A stretch of DNA of 54,198 nucleotides from Candidatus Saganbacteria bacterium (GCA_009772965.1 WPAF01000002.1:1-54198), one strand, 5' to 3'; shown: positions 2,863 to 36,339, counted from the first letter of the stretch. The notes: generated by a model not told the origin, from the sequence alone. Translations and numbers: made by a program.

Positions 2863-4951
2863 TAAAAAATCCTCCCACGCGGTGGCGGTCTTTTAATTCT
2901 GCTTTTTTGCCTTTGTTCCAGCCGGAAATCCTTGAAAAATATCCGGTGATCCTGGTAATGCCGTCAACATTTTCTGATTGGCAGTAAGGGCAGGCATCTT
3001 TTAAGCTTCGGGTGATTTTTCCGCAGTCGTTGCAGGACGTGAATTCAGGGGAAAAGGCGATCTGGCTGTTTTGGGTTTCTCTCATTGTTTTAACCACAAA
3101 ATTAGCAAGGCTTTCAGGGCTTGGCTTTGATTCTCCAAGCCAAACGTGGGTCAACGCGCCGGCGTCAATTAACGGATGGAACAATCCCTCCTGCCTTACG
3201 CGGTCAACAGGGTTCATTTGGTTTTTAACGTTGAAGTAGGTTGAATTGGAATAATAAATTTCCCCATTTTCATAACTGCCCTTGATCACATTGCGGGCAT
3301 GGCTTGTGTAATGCTGAAGATCGAGCTTCGCAAAGCGGTAGGCGGTTGATTCCGCGGGGGTTTGTTCCAGTACAAAATGTATGCCGTATTTTTTAGTCAT
3401 TTCATCGCATTTTATTTTCATGTGGGAAATAACCTTCAGCCCAAATTTTAGCGCCTCCGTATTTTCATGGAGCTCGTATCCCATGTGCGCCTGAACCAGC
3501 TCATTTAACCCGAGAATTCCCATAAGGTACGATACTCTCCACATTCTAAGATAAGGATGGCTATCCCTTTGCATGGCAAGCATAGAAAGGGGGCCGTTTT
3601 TACCGGCGGCTAAAAGTTCTTCAATGAATTTTTTCTTTTGGAGGTGGGCTTTGGCCGCAAGCTCAAGCATTTCGTCAATTAATGAGAAAAGTTTTTCATT
3701 TTTAGCCTTGGCGCGAAACGCAATCCTGGGGAGGTTGATCGTCACATTTTGGAGGGCTGAATAACGCATTTTCCAAGGTTCCTTGGCGTCGTCAAGGTCT
3801 GATTGTTCAAGCTTGAACGAAAGGCGGCAGCATTCGGAAATTTTTGCGGTATCGCCGCGGTCAAAGACATAATAGGTATTTCCCATTTCAGAAGATACCT
3901 CTGCTATGTGGCGGAGAAAATCTTCGTGTCCCGGAGTTTTAAAGAATTTTTCAGTCATATGGACAAGGGGTTTTGGAAAAAAGAAAGGCCGGCCTGAGCC
4001 ATCCCCTTCTTTGTAAACACTAAAAAGTTCCCAGCTGAATTTTTGCGCTTCTTTTTGGTACTCGCCATAAGTTTTGCCGGTGTAAAGCCCGCCCGGACCG
4101 ATTGCCGGCACATTTTCAAAATGCTTGGGTATTTCATAGTAAATGTTGATGTCTGAAAAAATGGCTTGGCCGCCGCGGGCAACAGCTTGCTGGCTGTATT
4201 CATATATCATCATTTGGGCAAGCTGGTGAATTTCTTTGTCTGATTTGCCGACCAAGAAAGGGGCAAAAAAGATATTTACCGCGTCCCAGCCGATTGCCCC
4301 GGCAAAAACCCCCTGAAGGGCGGCGGAGAATTTTACCATTTGTGCAAGAAGCACTTCTGCGTGCTTTGCCGGTTTTGCTATTGATAAAGCGTTTGGAAGG
4401 TCAAGGCCGAATTTTTTTACATATTCTATTGACTGTCCCGAGCAGTAGGGGCGGTCAATAAAGCCCAAATCATGGAGATGCATATCTCCTCTCATGTGCG
4501 CGTCGCTTATATCCTGCGAAAAAACATGGAGAAGGGCAAATTCTTTTTTTATCCCTTCGGCCAAAGAAAGGTTGGTGGCTTCTGGTCCGTGGGGGACATT
4601 TGCATTCTCCTTGTTTGGGGAAAAAATAATCTGCTTGACATCAAAAAGAGGCGTTCCTAAACGAGTATGCTTCCTCCTGGCGTCTTCAAGACCGTATTCA
4701 AGCAGTTTAACGTCAACCAGCTCGCGGATAAGAGGCGCGGTAATTGAGCCGATTCTCAAATTAGCAATTTGCCTTTCAACCTCATGCCCGATTATTTCTG
4801 CGATATCGCGGCTGATTTCAGTTTCTCTTATAAGCGCTTCGATTATCTTTTCCCTGTCCCACAGGACTATATTTTCAGACGACGTCCGGACAAAAAGCGC
4901 TAAATCGGTAGCATCAGAAACATTTGTTTTTTCCTCGGTTAAAACACTCAT
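2852..4951 (-). CDS. nrdD: Anaerobic ribonucleoside-triphosphate reductase, first copy
   Basis: A 699-residue class III ribonucleotide reductase. Residues about 20-105 form an ATP-cone, the allosteric nucleotide site. The barrel carries Cys170 (RPYCSG) and Cys374/375 (SECCRLSF). The zinc ribbon uses Cys640, 643, 654 and 657, and Gly670 in RITGY is the predicted radical site. Its start overlaps the nrdR stop by 4 nt (ATGA), so the two are translationally coupled and share the NrdR-controlled promoter. A tandem duplicate follows immediately. The cysteine pattern and an adjacent redoxin suggest use of a thiol reductant, not formate; that is inference. Confidence 0.95.
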   Translation of the reverse strand: MSVLTEEKTNVSDATDLALFVRTSSENIVLWDREKIIEALIRETEISRDIAEIIGHEVERQIANLRIGSITAPLIRELVDVKLLEYGLEDARRKHTRLGTPLFDVKQIIFSPNKENANVPHGPEATNLSLAEGIKKEFALLHVFSQDISDAHMRGDMHLHDLGFIDRPYCSGQSIEYVKKFGLDLPNALSIAKPAKHAEVLLAQMVKFSAALQGVFAGAIGWDAVNIFFAPFLVGKSDKEIHQLAQMMIYEYSQQAVARGGQAIFSDINIYYEIPKHFENVPAIGPGGLYTGKTYGEYQKEAQKFSWELFSVYKEGDGSGRPFFFPKPLVHMTEKFFKTPGHEDFLRHIAEVSSEMGNTYYVFDRGDTAKISECCRLSFKLEQSDLDDAKEPWKMRYSALQNVTINLPRIAFRAKAKNEKLFSLIDEMLELAAKAHLQKKKFIEELLAAGKNGPLSMLAMQRDSHPYLRMWRVSYLMGILGLNELVQAHMGYELHENTEALKFGLKVISHMKIKCDEMTKKYGIHFVLEQTPAESTAYRFAKLDLQHYTSHARNVIKGSYENGEIYYSNSTYFNVKNQMNPVDRVRQEGLFHPLIDAGALTHVWLGESKPSPESLANFVVKTMRETQNSQIAFSPEFTSCNDCGKITRSLKDACPYCQSENVDGITRITGYFSRISGWNKGKKAELKDRHRVGGFFNAN

Positions 4952-5394
4952 TGTGAAACCTCCCTTACAACTTGGACAAAATCTGTCACATCCTTAAACT
5001 GCTTATACACGGACGCGAACCTGACATAAGACACCTGATCGATTTTTTGCAGTAATTCCATTACCAGCTCTCCTATCTGAGAAGTTTTAACTTCTTCCGT
5101 TGACCTTCGGACAAATTTTTCAACCTCGTCCACAATCCCTTCAATTACCTCAAGTTCTATCGGACGCTTTTCACAGGCGCGGACCAGTCCGGCTAAAACC
5201 TTATCGCGGTTAAATTCTTCGTGCCTCAAATCTCGTTTTACGATTAAAAGCGGCTTTTCTTCAACCCTCTCATATGAGGTGAAGCGGTTGCCGCATTCTA
5301 CGCATTCCCTGCGGCGGCGGATGGCCAATCCGTCATCGGTTGGCCGGGAATCTAACACTTTATCGTTATCTTTTGCACATGCTGGGCATTTCAT
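4948..5394 (-). CDS. nrdR: Transcriptional repressor NrdR
   Basis: A 148-residue NrdR, the nucleotide-sensing repressor of ribonucleotide reductase genes. It has the N-terminal zinc ribbon Cys3/Cys6 (MKCPAC) and Cys31/Cys34 (CVECG) followed by an ATP-cone (about 49-139) that senses ATP/dATP. A GTG at 5403 would add three residues, but family members begin MxCPxC, so ATG 5394 is chosen. It heads the operon nrdR-nrdD-nrdD-redoxin. The ATG is preceded by no obvious Shine-Dalgarno sequence; a palindrome matching the NrdR box lies 6 nt upstream, so autoregulation is likely. Confidence 0.96.
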   Translation of the reverse strand: MKCPACAKDNDKVLDSRPTDDGLAIRRRRECVECGNRFTSYERVEEKPLLIVKRDLRHEEFNRDKVLAGLVRACEKRPIELEVIEGIVDEVEKFVRRSTEEVKTSQIGELVMELLQKIDQVSYVRFASVYKQFKDVTDFVQVVREVSQ

Positions 5395-5400
5395 ATAAAC

Positions 5401-5446
5401 CACTATATTTAGTGGGTTTGAGGATTATAGGCCACAACCTGTTGGG
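5401..5446 (-). promoter_or_regulatory. Two NrdR-box-like operators
   Basis: The palindrome CACTATATTTAGTG (5401-5414) matches the known NrdR box pattern. A weaker inverted repeat, CACAACCTGTTGGG (5433-5446), is centred 32 bp away, the roughly three-helical-turn spacing typical of paired NrdR boxes. The second sits between the -35 and -10 and the first lies just after the predicted transcription start, so bound NrdR would block polymerase. Confidence 0.75.
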
Positions 5447-5453
5447 CTGTCAA
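5424..5453 (-). promoter_or_regulatory. Consensus promoter of the nrdR operon
   Basis: Read on the minus strand this is TTGACA (5448-5453), an 18-nt spacer, and TATAAT (5424-5429), both hexamers perfect. The expected transcription start is near 5417, about 23 nt before the nrdR ATG. Confidence 0.85.
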
Positions 5454-5498
5454 GCTTTGCTTTTCCCTTAATTAATAAGGGTTTAAAGCGAGATTACG

Positions 5499-6428
5499 CT
5501 ATGAAGGAAGAGTTTCCCTTACAGATAAGCGGTGGCCGCGCACAAATTCTTGAGCAGGCATTTTTCTTCCGCCCTCAAGCTGGACTTCCATTAAATTAAT
5601 TGCTCCCGGTTCACAGCAAACAGTTAAGTTTTCTTTTATGCCAATGATTTCTCCAGGCATAAAATTTTTGGAAATAGAAACAGGGTTTGCTTTAAATATT
5701 TTTAGCATTTTTCCATGATAAAAAGTATGCGCGCCGGGCCAGGGGACCATTGCTCGTATCCGGTTGTTTATTTCAGCCGCCGGTTTTTTCCAGTTTATTT
5801 CTCCGCTTTCTTTTGTGATAAGCGGGGCATAAGTCGCGAGCGATTCATTTTGCGGCGTTTTTTTTGCGGCGCCTTTTTTAATTTGGTCAATTGCGGCAAG
5901 CAGGGTTTGCGCTCCCTGCTTAAAAATTTTATCAAGCAAAGCTTCGGTTGTATCTTCTGGATCGATCGCTACTTTATCTTGAAGGATAATATCCCCCGTA
6001 TCAAGGGATTCTGCCATTTGCATAATGGTGATGCCGGTTTCTGCCTCTCCTTTTATGATTGCCCATTGGACAGGAGCGGCTCCCCTATATTTGGGAAGCA
6101 GTGAAGCATGTACGTTTATTGATCCGAATTTGGGGGTATTTAAAATTTCTTTTGGCAGGATTTTCCCATAAGCTGCGGCAATGATTAAATCCGGAGCGAA
6201 TGATTTTATTTTATCAATAAAAGACTGGTCTTTTACTTTTTCGGGAGTTAAAACAGGGATGTGGTATTTTTCGGCAAGTTCTTTTACCGGGGAGGATTTA
6301 ACTTGCAAGTTTCTTCCTTTTGGCCGGTTGGGCTGGGTTACCGCGCATATTATTTGCTCCTGAGCCTCAACAAGCGCATTGAGGCAATACGCGGCGTGCT
6401 CAGGGGTTCCCATAAATATTATTTTAAT
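5499..6428 (-). CDS. fmt: Methionyl-tRNA formyltransferase
   Basis: Formylates initiator Met-tRNA using 10-formyl-tetrahydrofolate. The catalytic region INVHASLLPKYRGAAP (Asn, His) and LDTGD (Asp) are present, and the C-terminal tRNA-binding domain follows. The first ATG (6413) would start the protein at MGTPE and delete the first strand of the Rossmann fold. The frame continues upstream as IKIIFMGTPE, which matches family N-termini, so I propose an ATT start at 6426-6428 (309 residues) with AAGGA nine nt before it. That start is inference; 304 residues from the ATG is the conservative call. It follows def directly, and the two are functionally paired (formylation and deformylation). Confidence 0.9.
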   Translation of the reverse strand: MKIIFMGTPEHAAYCLNALVEAQEQIICAVTQPNRPKGRNLQVKSSPVKELAEKYHIPVLTPEKVKDQSFIDKIKSFAPDLIIAAAYGKILPKEILNTPKFGSINVHASLLPKYRGAAPVQWAIIKGEAETGITIMQMAESLDTGDIILQDKVAIDPEDTTEALLDKIFKQGAQTLLAAIDQIKKGAAKKTPQNESLATYAPLITKESGEINWKKPAAEINNRIRAMVPWPGAHTFYHGKMLKIFKANPVSISKNFMPGEIIGIKENLTVCCEPGAINLMEVQLEGGRKMPAQEFVRGHRLSVRETLPS

Positions 6429-31671: not shown

Positions 31672-32538
31672 ATGGATGAAAATTTTAGTAAAATAAAATT
31701 GGTTCTCTGGCAGATATTGTTTCTAAACTGGCTGGTGGCGGCCATGAAAATATTCATTGGCTCGGTTTTCGGGCTTATATCCATGGTTGCTGACGGGTTC
31801 CATTCTTTAACAGACGGGGCAAGCAATATTATCGGACTGGTTGGATTGACCGCGGCTTCAAAGCCCGTAGATTCAGACCATCCATATGGGCATAAAAAAA
31901 TTGAGAGCTTTACCGCCTTGGGGATATCTATGCTTCTTTTGATTGTATGCTATGAAGTTATACAATCTTCAATCTCAAGGATCTTTTCCCCGCAGAAGCC
32001 GGAAGCATCGCCTTTGGCCTTTGTCGTGATGATTATTACATTTGCGATAAACATATTTGTTGTCATTTACGAGCTTCGTAAAGGGAAAGAATATAAAAGC
32101 GATATTTTAGTTTCGGATTCGATGCATACAAGAAGCGATATTTTTGTATCTTCGGCCGTTATTGTTTCTTTAATTGGGATTAGGATGGGGTTCCCGATTG
32201 TTGACCCAATTGCGTCGCTTATTATAGTCCTAATGATTTTATATTCCGCATTTAGGATTCTAATGAACATTTTTGGGGTGCTTGTTGACAGGGCGGCTGT
32301 TGACAGGATGAAAATTGAAGAAATTGCGCGTTCCCATCCTAAGGTAATAGTCTGCCATAAGGTGCGTACCCGGGGAAGGGAAGACGATATACATGTTGAC
32401 CTCCATATAAGCGTAGATTCAAATATGAGCGTTTTACATTCCCACGGCTTGTCCCATGAGCTCCAGGAGAACATAAAAAAGGAAATAGCCGGCGTCACAG
32501 ACGTAATAATCCATATTGAGCCCTGGCATAAAAAATGA
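31672..32538 (+). CDS. Cation diffusion facilitator metal exporter
   Basis: A 288-residue CDF protein exporting Zn2+, Fe2+, Mn2+ or similar. The transmembrane metal site is visible as ADGFHSLTDGASN (HxxxD) with the partner Asp in SDSMHTRSD, and DHPYGHKKIE lies in the cytoplasmic loop. A C-terminal cytoplasmic domain (from about 205) ends with DVIIHIEPWHKK. The metal cannot be told. Start at 31672 follows the -10 box by 7 nt. It overlaps the beta-lactamase-fold gene by 4 nt. Confidence 0.92.
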   Translation: MDENFSKIKLVLWQILFLNWLVAAMKIFIGSVFGLISMVADGFHSLTDGASNIIGLVGLTAASKPVDSDHPYGHKKIESFTALGISMLLLIVCYEVIQSSISRIFSPQKPEASPLAFVVMIITFAINIFVVIYELRKGKEYKSDILVSDSMHTRSDIFVSSAVIVSLIGIRMGFPIVDPIASLIIVLMILYSAFRILMNIFGVLVDRAAVDRMKIEEIARSHPKVIVCHKVRTRGREDDIHVDLHISVDSNMSVLHSHGLSHELQENIKKEIAGVTDVIIHIEPWHKK

Positions 32539-33479
32539 CCAGGATCCTCTTTGCCGCGTTTATTGTCCTTCTTAATTATAATTCTTTTGCCTTAAATCCC
32601 GTCCAACTAGAAAAAAAGCTTGAGCAATTAGTAGATAAAGAAAAAGCAGGGATGGTTTTTATCGATTTAAAAAGCGGGTGTGAATTAAGCATTGGCGGGT
32701 CGCGGGAATTTCCTGCGGCATCAGTTGCTAAACTGCCGGTTATGGCGGCGGCATACCATTTGTCGCAAAATGGAATTATTAATTTAAATAACAAGATACA
32801 GTTTAGGGAAGCTGACAGGATGGAAGGATCAGGGGTTTTGCGCTGGATGAAAGCAGGGAGAAGTTATACTATTTTCAACCTCATTCGCTTGATGATTGTC
32901 TTGTCTGATAATTCCGCCACAAAAATGCTTGTTGATTGTATTGGGGCGCCAGTTGTAAATGGATATCTGGCGGAGGCAGGGATAACAAAAACCAGGATCA
33001 CCGACCATACCATGCTGGTTGAGCCTCCATCTGCCGAGGTAAATATGACTACGCCATATGAAATGGCGGTTCTGGTCAGGAAAATATTCAAGCAGGACGG
33101 ATTTAACAAGGAATCCGCAAGGCAAATGCTTTCTTTTATGAAAAGCCAGAAATACCGCTGGGGTATTTGGAGGGGAGTCCCTCCAGGCGTGATTGTGGCG
33201 GATAAAACCGGCAACCTTGAAAAAATATTAAATGATGTCGGCATAGTTTATACCAAAAACGGCTGTTATATCCTATCGATATTTACCCACGGGTATGCCA
33301 AACAAAGGGATGCCAGGATAATGATTAACGAAATATCAAAAGTGGTGTATGAGGAATATACCGGCGAAAAAGTCATACAAAAGAAGAAGAAAATAATTAG
33401 AAAATATAAAAAAAAGCTATCAAGAAAGCGCCGCTATAACCGCATCCGCCATTTGCGAAGTGCCAAGTTTACCCATTAA
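32535..33479 (+). CDS. Class A beta-lactamase-fold serine hydrolase
   Basis: 314 residues with an N-terminal signal (about 1-19). Catalytic motifs of class A beta-lactamases are all present: S63-VA-K66, S124-D-N126, an omega-loop Glu163 region and K224-T-G226. It may hydrolyse beta-lactams or act as a peptidoglycan carboxypeptidase-like enzyme. The C-terminal ~50 residues are strongly basic (KKKKIIRKYKKKLSRKRR), atypical for the family. The last codons lie in a 40-bp copy of the idh 3' end, so the native C-terminus seems to have been altered by an insertion. Confidence 0.85.
   Translation: MTRILFAAFIVLLNYNSFALNPVQLEKKLEQLVDKEKAGMVFIDLKSGCELSIGGSREFPAASVAKLPVMAAAYHLSQNGIINLNNKIQFREADRMEGSGVLRWMKAGRSYTIFNLIRLMIVLSDNSATKMLVDCIGAPVVNGYLAEAGITKTRITDHTMLVEPPSAEVNMTTPYEMAVLVRKIFKQDGFNKESARQMLSFMKSQKYRWGIWRGVPPGVIVADKTGNLEKILNDVGIVYTKNGCYILSIFTHGYAKQRDARIMINEISKVVYEEYTGEKVIQKKKKIIRKYKKKLSRKRRYNRIRHLRSAKFTH
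33425..33464. repeat. Direct repeat, left copy (att-like)
   Basis: Forty bases matching 35265-35304 with 37 identities; the first 28 are perfect (from AAAGCGCCGCTATAACC). It duplicates the 3' end of idh, without its stop codon, inside the beta-lactamase-fold gene. Confidence 0.85.
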
Positions 33480-33636
33480 CTTCGATTTTGCTACAAACCT
33501 GTCGCGATGGTAACAAACGCAATATTTAATACACCACAATTATTTTTTTAAGCCCAGACTTGATTAGTGTATTGCGATAAGCTACCATATATCAGCCATA
33601 AAGTAATATTTAGTTAATCAGATAAGGAGTTGATTT

Positions 33637-34380
33637 ATGTTTAATAGGCCAAAATATATTGAAAGTGCTATAAATATTGTATTTGATAGACAGTCGGGAA
33701 TTCGAAGGAAAGCAAATGAATTTGAAGATTTATTGAAAGGGAAATATAGTCAACCTGATATTATTTCAGTGCCGGATGATCTAGACCCAGAGGTTCCACG
33801 AATGATTTTTACTTCTACTCATGGATATAGTCGGATAATTGCAACGCAAGTAAATATATCATTAAATGTTCGATATTCTGAAGATGAATGGCAAAACAAT
33901 ATAGACAAAGGTAAAGAATATATGGAAGAAAGGATACCAATTCTTTTTGGCTTATTAGCAAAACTCTCTCCAGATGTTAGGGTAAATTATTGTGGATTTA
34001 ATACAAGAACACGATTATTGTTTAGTGATTCCGATAAAGAGTTTATTGGAGTGTTAATAAAAAAATATTTCAATGAATCAATCTCCACGGAAGATTTGTT
34101 TGAATTAAGGCTAAAAAAAGTTAAGATGATTGAGCAGAAGTATTTTAGCAATATAGAGATATCTATGTACAAAAAATGGAATATTGAGGAAATAAAAAAA
34201 ACAAAAAAGTTTGACACAAGAAATATTGCAGAGAAAGCCTTAGATATATTTATTGATTATAACGATAAATTTGCATTTAACCATACTGATAATTATATTT
34301 CCCAAGAAAGCATATTAAAACAAGTATTGAGAAATGCCTTGGCTGAGCTACAAAAGGAAATCATAAATGCAAGTAGTTAA
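33637..34380 (+). CDS. Unknown 247-residue protein of the PIN cassette
   Basis: Not recognised with confidence. The start FNRPKYIESAINIVFD and the mixed alpha/beta composition recall the TIGR04255 group of sporadically distributed proteins, but this is a guess. There is no signal peptide or membrane helix. GGAG precedes ATG 33637. It overlaps the next gene by 14 nt and is the first of three genes in the cassette, a good candidate for a sensor or regulator of the PIN protein. Confidence 0.55.
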   Translation: MFNRPKYIESAINIVFDRQSGIRRKANEFEDLLKGKYSQPDIISVPDDLDPEVPRMIFTSTHGYSRIIATQVNISLNVRYSEDEWQNNIDKGKEYMEERIPILFGLLAKLSPDVRVNYCGFNTRTRLLFSDSDKEFIGVLIKKYFNESISTEDLFELRLKKVKMIEQKYFSNIEISMYKKWNIEEIKKTKKFDTRNIAEKALDIFIDYNDKFAFNHTDNYISQESILKQVLRNALAELQKEIINASS

Positions 34381-34792
34381 TGAAATAGATACAAACACAA
34401 CAGCCATATGTGCGATGCAAAGCAGGACAGGATTGGCTGAAAATATTAACCAATGGACTAAAGCGTATCCCGATGTATTAACGACAAGTAGTTTTTCTTT
34501 TTGGGGTAAAGATGAGGTGCAAGTTAAAGAAGAAAGGTTGTCCTTATCTAATACCAGCTTGAATAAAGAATGGTACGATATTGGAAGAAATTGGACAAAT
34601 CGCAGGTTGGTTTACAGGGGAGTAAATACGACAGACAACGAATCCTTTTCAACGGTAAGAGGGGATAAATGGATTAGGCCTAAAAAATCAACTATTGGAG
34701 CATTGGTTAAAGGGGCTGTGGGTTGGGTTGGGAATGATTTGGATGAATTATTAAATGAAATAAAAAAACTAAGAGGAAATATAGAATTATAA
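34367..34792 (+). CDS. Unknown 141-residue protein before the PIN toxin
   Basis: Not recognised. It is soluble, rich in Thr, Ser and Asn in the first half (about 1-75) and charged at the C-terminus (LDELLNEIKKLRGNIEL, a probable helix). Such a C-terminal helix next to a PIN gene would suit an antitoxin, but no DNA-binding fold is visible. It lies 7 nt before the PIN gene. Confidence 0.5.
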   Translation: MQVVNEIDTNTTAICAMQSRTGLAENINQWTKAYPDVLTTSSFSFWGKDEVQVKEERLSLSNTSLNKEWYDIGRNWTNRRLVYRGVNTTDNESFSTVRGDKWIRPKKSTIGALVKGAVGWVGNDLDELLNEIKKLRGNIEL

Positions 34793-34799
34793 CAAATAT

Positions 34800-35258
34800 A
34801 TGTTTCTACTTGATACAACGTATTGTAGCAAAATAATCGATAAAGACCGGTCACTTATGGAACATATTTCAAATAATGTGCCTAAAGATTCATATGTTGC
34901 TACAAGTGTGGTTTCAAAAGGTGAATTAGTTTATATGGTTGAAAAGTCAGAACGAAAGGAAGATAACAAAAGGGTTGTTAGAAACTTTTTGGAAAATATT
35001 GACATTCAACCGGTGACCTCAAAAGTTGCGGATGTTTATGGCGAGTTGAAGTATAATATATTTTCAAAATATGCACCTAAAGAAAAAACCAAGAGAAACA
35101 AGTATACCTTAGCAAGGCTTGGTATTACAGAAAACGATGCGTGGATTGCTGCTCTGGCAATATCTATGGGATTAACTGTAATCACTAAGGATTCGGATTT
35201 TCAAAGAATTAAAGACGCGGATAACAGATTGAATTATGAAGAATGGCCTGTTTCATAA
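34800..35258 (+). CDS. VapC-like PIN-domain ribonuclease
   Basis: A 152-residue PIN-domain protein. The acidic metal-binding set is visible: Asp5 (FLLDTTYCS), Glu42 (GELVY), Asp113 (ENDAWIAALA) and Asp131/Asp133 (TKDSDFQRI). VapC toxins cleave tRNA or rRNA. The partner is not a standard VapB; instead two unknown genes precede it. It ends 4 nt before the convergent idh stop. Confidence 0.88.
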   Translation: MFLLDTTYCSKIIDKDRSLMEHISNNVPKDSYVATSVVSKGELVYMVEKSERKEDNKRVVRNFLENIDIQPVTSKVADVYGELKYNIFSKYAPKEKTKRNKYTLARLGITENDAWIAALAISMGLTVITKDSDFQRIKDADNRLNYEEWPVS

Positions 35259-35262
35259 AACC

Positions 35263-36339
35263 TCAAAGCGCCGCTATAACCGCATCCGCCATCTGAGAAG
35301 TTCCGACAGCAGTGGGGTCGTCACGGTTAAGCTTTAAATCATATGTGACACTTTTCCCTTCTGCAATAACTTTTGCGGCTGCTTTTTCCAATTTATCGGC
35401 GGAAGCCTGTTCGCCAATATGCCTGAGCATTAACACAGCCGAAAGAAGCACGGCGGTGGGGTTGACTTTATTTAATCCGGCATATTTTGGGGCGCTGCCG
35501 TGGATTGCTTCAAAAACAGCAAGCCCATTCCCAAAGTTTGCTCCAGGAGCAACCCCCAATCCTCCGATAAGCCCCGCGCACAAATCAGAAATAATATCGC
35601 CGTAAAGGTTGGGAAGCACTAAAACGTCGTATAATTCCGGCTTTTGGACCAGCTGCATGCACATATTGTCAATCAGCCGTTCTTCGTATTCGATTGTATT
35701 GTATTCTTTTGCAACTTCTCTCGCGGCGTGGAAAAATAGCCCGTCAGTGAATTTCATGATATTTGCTTTTGTCACGGCGGTTACTTTTTTCCGGTTGTTT
35801 TTTACGGCATAATCAAAAGCAAACTTAACAATCCTTTTTGTCCCTGAGATGGAAATCGGCTTAATGCTGATGCCCGAATCTTTGCTTATTTTTTTCTTTG
35901 AAAGCTTTTCAATTTCAGAAATAAGCCCGAGAGTTTCAGTTTTTCCTTCTTCAAATTCTATTCCAGCGTATAAATCTTCTGTGTTTTCACGGACAACCAC
36001 AAGGTCGATATTTTTATATTTGCTTCTGACGCCTGTTAGCGATTTGCAAGGCCTTAAACAAACAAAAAGATCCAGCTCTTTCCTGATTGCCACATTTACA
36101 GAGCGAAAACCGGTGCCGATGGGTGTGGTGATGGGGCCTTTTAACGCGACTTTATTTTTTCTTATTGACTCAAGGGTTGATTCCGGCAGGGGTGTGCCGT
36201 ATTTTTTCAAAACGTCCGCACCAGCTTCCGCGACTTCCCAATTAATTTTGACGCCAGCAGCAATAACACAACGCTTTACTGCCTCGCAAATTTCAGGGCC
36301 GATGCCGTCGCCGGGGATCAAAGTAATATTATGTGTCAT
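35263..36339 (-). CDS. NAD-type isocitrate dehydrogenase
   Basis: A 358-residue beta-decarboxylating dehydrogenase. [11 protein letters not shown] starts the fold; [18 protein letters not shown] binds substrate; [17 protein letters not shown] supplies the catalytic Asp residues. The Ser-Val-Asn form and the [15 protein letters not shown] block fit the NAD-dependent isocitrate dehydrogenase type, though 3-isopropylmalate or homoisocitrate dehydrogenase are alternatives. It makes 2-oxoglutarate, the carbon skeleton for the divergent glnA and nearby gdhA. The 3' end is duplicated on the far side of the PIN cassette. Confidence 0.85.
35265..35304. repeat. Direct repeat, right copy (idh 3' end)
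   Basis: Lies in the final codons of idh and matches 33425-33464 at 37 of 40 positions. Confidence 0.85.

Follow-up and report, generated by a model that had tools for sequence, protein, structure and literature searches.

A 1.84-kb integrase-free insertion at the 3' end of idh in Candidatus Saganbacteria carries a putative three-component toxin-antitoxin module

Results

Anatomy of the insertion

The window, that is, the whole 54,198-nucleotide stretch of Candidatus Saganbacteria DNA analyzed here, is one contig (G000:C58) of a 1.63-Mb genome that is 94% complete and assembled in 63 contigs. It includes a gene of the isocitrate dehydrogenase family (idh; 35263-36339, minus strand) and a convergent gene for a class A-like beta-lactamase-fold protein (32535-33479, plus strand). 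A reading made from the sequence alone had described, between these two, a block of three small genes bounded by 40-bp repeats (37/40 identical) derived from the last codons of idh, and both parts of this description are borne out. The genes, all on the plus strand, are ORF1 (33637-34380), ORF2 (34367-34792), and ORF3 (34800-35258); the direct repeats, at 33425-33464 and 35265-35304, are 37/40 identical, are spaced by exactly 1,840 bp, and share an exact core of 28 consecutive identical bases. The second-best ungapped match to the 40-mer in the window reaches 24/40, and a search of the whole genome found only two copies of the repeat, both bounding the block.

The right, attR-like repeat is the working 3' end of idh, and its side to the left of the crossover comes from the insert. 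The left, attL-like repeat, which overlaps the 3' end of the beta-lactamase-fold gene, is the displaced idh 3' end; its positions 33425-33452 match the right copy exactly, and positions 33453-33464, which hold three mismatches, are part of the insert. Likeness to idh ends just past the edge of the repeat, in the non-coding left arm (33465-33636), the region upstream of ORF1 with an AAGGAG motif ahead of the ORF1 ATG. The three genes are closely packed, with the ORF3 stop codon 6 bp short of the right repeat. An Rfam search of the insert yielded no match.

All three mismatches between the repeats are found on the side of the core toward the idh body, and none changes the amino acid encoded in the idh frame; given a synonymous fraction of 26%, three synonymous changes would arise by chance with a probability of about 0.02. 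To judge from these substitutions, the idh end brought in by the insert was probably a coding one, derived from another, related lineage, which is what an attP would be expected to carry. The possibility that the repeats represent a transposon target-site duplication was rejected because 40 bp with synonymous differences is no duplicated target.

The idh reading frame is kept, with the end supplied by the insert (AAL*) replacing the previous one (AALS*), and only the C-terminal tail of the beta-lactamase-fold protein is altered, outside the domain (residues 39-251). When the flanks are joined in silico, the beta-lactamase-fold protein ends in GVVTVKL and its gene overlaps idh by 75 bp, in agreement with the earlier prediction that removal of the block would restore overlapping convergent ends, an idh longer by one codon, and a VVTVKL terminus. 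The empty site that this prediction implies is seen in six relatives (G001, G011, G014, G016, G021, and G024, the first from the same family as the window genome), where the two genes are directly convergent and overlap by 17-107 bp, so that a second copy of the repeat could not fit between them. Persistence of both repeat copies in relatives that lack the cassette, which the earlier reading had named as a refuting outcome, was not observed.

No other 1.8-kb stretch of the window is as rich in AT as the insert, whose GC content of 32.4% lies below that of all 975 outside windows of equal size (40.9 +/- 2.9%). By both sequence and profile searches, ORF1 is present in 1 of the 74 genomes of the phylum, that of the window itself; fixation of the three genes at this locus across the phylum, which would have refuted the earlier reading, is thus not what is seen. 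A search of the left arm across the phylum returned only short, chance-level matches. Given the absence of ORF1 from the other 73 genomes and the low GC content, the insertion is, by these sequence measures, of foreign composition and, relative to the age of the phylum, recent.

Search for a recombinase

No recombinase was detected among the three insert genes with Pfam, PHROGs, PADLOC, or NCBIfam, in line with the earlier remark that the block contains no integrase. The block lacks integration and transfer genes, while attL/attR-like direct repeats of the target gene end persist, which are features of CIMEs. Elsewhere in the genome, three tyrosine recombinases were detected. Two, with open frames of 292-297 aa, are the size of Xer proteins; the third, of 383 aa, adjoins terminase-like genes on contig C27. 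This third enzyme belongs to a prophage fragment (L038:1-7600), and no other phage-type integrase was detected in the genome. It was rejected as the owner of the idh site because it abuts tRNA-Ser(GCT), its evident site. A serine recombinase acting in trans was rejected as well, given that a search of the genome for proteins of the resolvase family found none. The search for an integrase specific for the idh site, which the earlier reading had suggested as a check, came out empty in this 94% complete genome, and no integrase was recognized beside idh in seven inspected relatives with other downstream genes. A degenerate pattern of the idh end, used to look for a phage attP with an idh tail, matched nothing in viral contigs; neither an excised circle or attP nor an element with an integrase at the idh site was found.

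A predicted PIN toxin, a putative chimeric antitoxin, and a third protein

ORF3 encodes a predicted VapC-type ribonuclease toxin with a PIN domain, the only Pfam domain among the three insert genes (E = 4e-15), in which the acidic active-site residues are in place (D5, E42, D113, and D131/D133). Its closest match among plasmid records is a cyanobacterial VapC (48.6% over 138 residues; Calothrix, about 48%). At their C-termini, the antitoxins encoded ahead of these cyanobacterial VapC genes carry a short tail (for example, GTWQGNDFEECLQLVYETRSQAEF), and codons 119-141 of ORF2 (34721-34789) resemble such a VapB toxin-binding tail. A profile of the classical VapB tail, run against 203 reading frames, retrieved the ORF2 proteins of two other loci with high significance (L061, E = 4e-17; L062, E = 9e-15) and that of the window with a modest E-value of 3e-4, the next match being at 0.4. 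ORF2 (141 aa) matched nothing in Pfam or NCBIfam, including DUF2281 and other known antitoxin N-domains; its N-terminal part has few charged residues and is hydrophobic in most relatives, only mildly so in the window. Because its C-terminus is found by the VapB-tail profile, ORF2 is best read as a predicted chimeric antitoxin that joins a module-specific N-terminal part to a VapB-type toxin-binding tail.

ORF1 (247 aa), the conserved first gene of the module and a proposed chaperone or sensor, matches phrog_22817, a family of no known function, over its length (E = 1e-19) and has no match in Pfam. The AlphaFold model of ORF1 is confident (pLDDT 86), and we read it as a two-lobed alpha/beta protein. 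Foldseek comparison of the model to the PDB gave weak matches to TATA-binding protein, AdoMetDC, and RepDE, none with a TM-score above about 0.3; SecB was not among the 50 top-ranked PDB folds that each of the two ORF1 searches listed, and an ORF1 profile matched no PDB chain sequence. In an AlphaFold model of the read-through of ORF1 and ORF2 from another locus (L060), ORF2 was left disordered, so that the model is uninformative about ORF2.

The module in other genomes

Single-sequence scans of genome and viral collections with ORF1 produced no match; relatives on six contigs of the genome collection were detected only with an alignment-based search. In two other phyla, ORF1 relatives are present in 3/395 and 3/399 genomes, each count including the query genome itself. 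A relative is found in a Leptospira phage, and another on a 2.6-kb Enterobacter plasmid (L056:1-1031), as a partial match to the Leptospira protein, followed by a gene for a 121-aa protein whose hydrophobic stretches probably span the membrane.

At ten further loci with long ORF1 relatives, from other phyla and the Leptospira phage, the gene order is conserved, with a small ORF2 next to ORF1 in nine and an intact third gene in seven. The identity of the third gene varies. It encodes a PIN protein of the lineage of the window in L062, a PIN protein of a second lineage in L060 and L072 and, in a frameshifted form, in L074, a phrog_4575 protein in the Leptospira phage and L063, a protein similar to phrog_4575 proteins in L075, and an aspartyl-protease-like protein in L064; L061 has an ORF2 without a recognized toxin, and L073 has no recognized partner gene. 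Two unrelated PIN lineages occupy the same third-gene slot. The ORF2 tails of L060, L072, and L074 share the pattern [LQ]GKYxxxxxSxEEF (with T for the first S in L060), unlike the tail of the window ORF2. Given that these three loci carry the other PIN lineage, the tail and the toxin apparently change together.

In a Thermodesulfobacteriales MAG (L060:2620-4055), a BREX operon harbors an ORF1-ORF2-PIN module, flanked by brxC/pglY on one side and a pglX-like methyltransferase gene on the other, and the L061 module adjoins type I methylase and specificity sequences. In the Leptospira phage LE1 (L037:3736-8413), the module is followed closely by a His-Xaa-Ser (hxs) cluster. In L064 (4977-6583), the ORF1 relative, a 108-aa protein, and the aspartyl-protease-like protein are encoded between an acetyltransferase gene and mutS. 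In L074 (reverse strand, about 4419-6000), the module with the frameshifted PIN gene immediately follows rpsI, a gene that some IMEs use, and has no flanking repeat.

The earlier reading proposed to look for the same genes beside other att-like repeats, and no comparable repeat turned up at the other module loci examined. Five of these had no exact flanking repeats longer than 11 bp. The 29-bp repeats that flank the module in L063 (1378-1406 and 3508-3536), from a Bacillaceae MAG, were rejected as an att site because they are near-identical palindromes with 6-7 close copies in that genome, that is, dispersed REP-like sequences. The att-like boundary therefore belongs to the idh insertion rather than to the module.

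Discussion

Arrival of the insert

The insertion is located at the 3' end of idh and restores the coding end, a feature of integrating elements of the e14 type. We infer that it arose by site-specific recombination: a circular or circularized DNA of about 1.84 kb bearing a copy of an idh 3' end would have undergone a phage-type exchange with the same end of the chromosomal idh, the crossover falling within the 28 bp of identity, and would thereby have restored idh on one side and displaced the old idh end on the other. Since the enzyme is neither in the insert nor found for the idh site in the genome, it would have been supplied in trans or lost afterwards. Taken as a whole, this scenario, combined with a three-component toxin-antitoxin cargo in which ORF1 serves as a guard, appears to us the best and a reasonably probable explanation of the locus.

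The main alternative, to which we assign somewhat less than an even chance, is that the insert is what remains of a larger phage, ICE, or IME integrated at idh. Deletions would have removed the integrase and most of the rest of this element, so that only attL, attR, and the toxin module persist, no longer mobile, which would make the remnant a CIME in the strict sense. Decay is the origin usually given for integrase-less att-flanked elements (PMC5704250), the missing recombinase is accounted for both within the insert and in the genome, and toxin-antitoxin genes resist loss through addiction; on the other hand, no fragments of an integrase or any other phage gene were seen, and the three genes are tightly packed up to the right repeat. 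Loss by decay and action in trans leave the same anatomy. Accordingly, of the earlier interpretation, the insertion at the idh 3' end, the empty site, and the integrase-free block stand, whereas the minimal element mobilized in trans is only one of the histories compatible with them. Homologous, RecA-dependent Campbell-type insertion of a small circular DNA with an idh 3' fragment would yield the same repeats and dispense with the recombinase that was not found for the site, but RecA would have little to work with in about 40 bp of homology, the likeness to idh stops just beyond these 40 bp, and exact placement at a restored gene 3' end is a habit of integrases, which makes this route improbable. 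An assembly artefact, in which a free circle with an idh tail was falsely joined to the chromosome through the 28-bp core, could be suspected in a 63-contig assembly where the identity between the copies extends over only 28 bp. However, both flanks are syntenic with those of the relatives, and 28 bp is short relative to the usual assembly k-mers and read lengths, so we regard such an artefact as extremely unlikely.

Proposed mode of action of the module

With respect to the cargo, the sequence-only label of a PIN-toxin cassette holds insofar as a PIN toxin gene is present, but the three genes form a three-component module found in several phyla rather than a plain PIN toxin. An ordinary two-gene VapBC pair next to an unrelated upstream gene might be envisaged, considering that, among plasmid records, the PIN protein is closest to classical VapC proteins with DUF2281-type antitoxins and that ORF2 has a VapB-like tail. 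This is unlikely, however, because in distant phyla the order of ORF1, a small ORF2, and a third gene recurs with different toxins, and because ORF2 lacks DUF2281 or any other known antitoxin N-domain. Even less credible, indeed very improbable, is a RepD-like replication or nicking function of ORF1 that would give the circle autonomy: the Foldseek similarity to Staphylococcus RepDE (E = 1e-4) and the relative on the small Enterobacter plasmid hint at it, but the low TM-scores are equaled by TATA-binding protein and AdoMetDC, there is no sequence match to any PDB chain or Pfam replication family, and most relatives are chromosomal, one of them within the BREX operon.

The three-component module would work as follows. 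The PIN protein would act as an RNase toxin that ORF2 neutralizes via the VapB-like C-terminal tail, and ORF1 would bind the module-specific N-terminal part of ORF2 and keep ORF2 stable; if ORF1 were lost or hijacked, for example, through the action of a phage protein, ORF2 would decay and the toxin would be released. By analogy with TAC systems, in which a SecB-like chaperone protects the antitoxin, and with CmdTAC in particular, where the chaperone is diverted by a phage capsid protein (PMC3968373, PMC11618068), we infer that ORF1 guards the N-terminal part of ORF2. Weighing against this scheme are the mild hydrophobicity of the N-terminal part of the window ORF2, the modest match of its tail, and the lack of a SecB-like fold in ORF1. 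The cargo thus looks like a tripartite toxin-antitoxin system that would work like TAC without a SecB-like chaperone. More broadly, phrog_22817 could, tentatively, define an undescribed class of tripartite toxin-antitoxin or phage-defense systems, in which a non-SecB, two-lobed alpha/beta component holds a chimeric antitoxin, and the tail and the toxin (two PIN lineages, phrog_4575, or an aspartyl-protease-like protein) are swapped as a unit, with the Saganbacteria locus being a very small att-flanked integrase-less element at a metabolic gene; we rate this broader proposal as possible, a little short of probable. If it is correct, it adds a tripartite toxin-antitoxin class with a third component that is not SecB-like, makes visible a rule of toxin exchange, whereby the tail and the toxin change jointly while ORF1 and the operon order remain constant, and provides, from beyond the well-studied bacteria, a very small example of a phage-type site occupied by an insertion that has no integrase.

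Comparison with known systems

In E. coli, e14 and phage 21 occupy the 3' end of icd and leave a duplicated gene end. Like the element described here, they are inserted in an isocitrate dehydrogenase gene whose function is kept (for e14, PMC4632033), but they are far larger and encode their own integrase, whereas the insert in the window consists of three genes and lacks one. Given the insertion of e14 in the isocitrate dehydrogenase gene (PMC4632033), the idh position has a precedent. Elements that keep att ends but lack an integrase go by the name of CIMEs (PMC5704250), and integrase-less islands are found at ssrA in Dehalococcoides (PMC3146451); in both, as in the window, att-like repeats flank cargo without an integration module (PMC5704250, PMC3146451). 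Those elements, however, occur with or near elements that have an integrase for the same site, whereas no such partner was found for the window insert, and its target is a protein-coding gene.

Among VapBC systems, those with DUF2281-type antitoxins on cyanobacterial plasmids and a related pair in Herpetosiphon come closest, with PIN proteins about 40-49% identical to ORF3 and a related antitoxin tail, but the inspected loci lack ORF1, and the usual N-terminal part of the antitoxin is replaced in ORF2. Of the VapBC hallmarks, the window module thus has the PIN domain with its acidic residues and, modestly, the VapB tail, but no known VapB-type N-domain. With the TAC systems (M. tuberculosis HigBA1-Rv1957 and CmdTAC), the module shares a three-gene plan, in which the antitoxin has an additional module-specific part and a third protein joins the toxin-antitoxin pair, as well as the variety of toxins (PMC3968373, PMC11618068); the agreement of the window module with the plan of toxin, antitoxin, and third conserved protein is one of sequence only. 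In the window module, however, the third protein is encoded first in the operon, is about 250 aa long, and is not SecB-like, and the module-specific part of the antitoxin is N-terminal, with the toxin-binding tail at the C-terminus. Because a SecB-like chaperone was looked for and not found, we do not class the module as TAC. We found no description of the phrog_22817 module in the open-access literature, which misses most subscription papers. Of the insertion and its cargo, the cargo is the more interesting. The insertion adds one more case to a known kind, and the module represents a new variant among the tripartite toxin-antitoxin systems.
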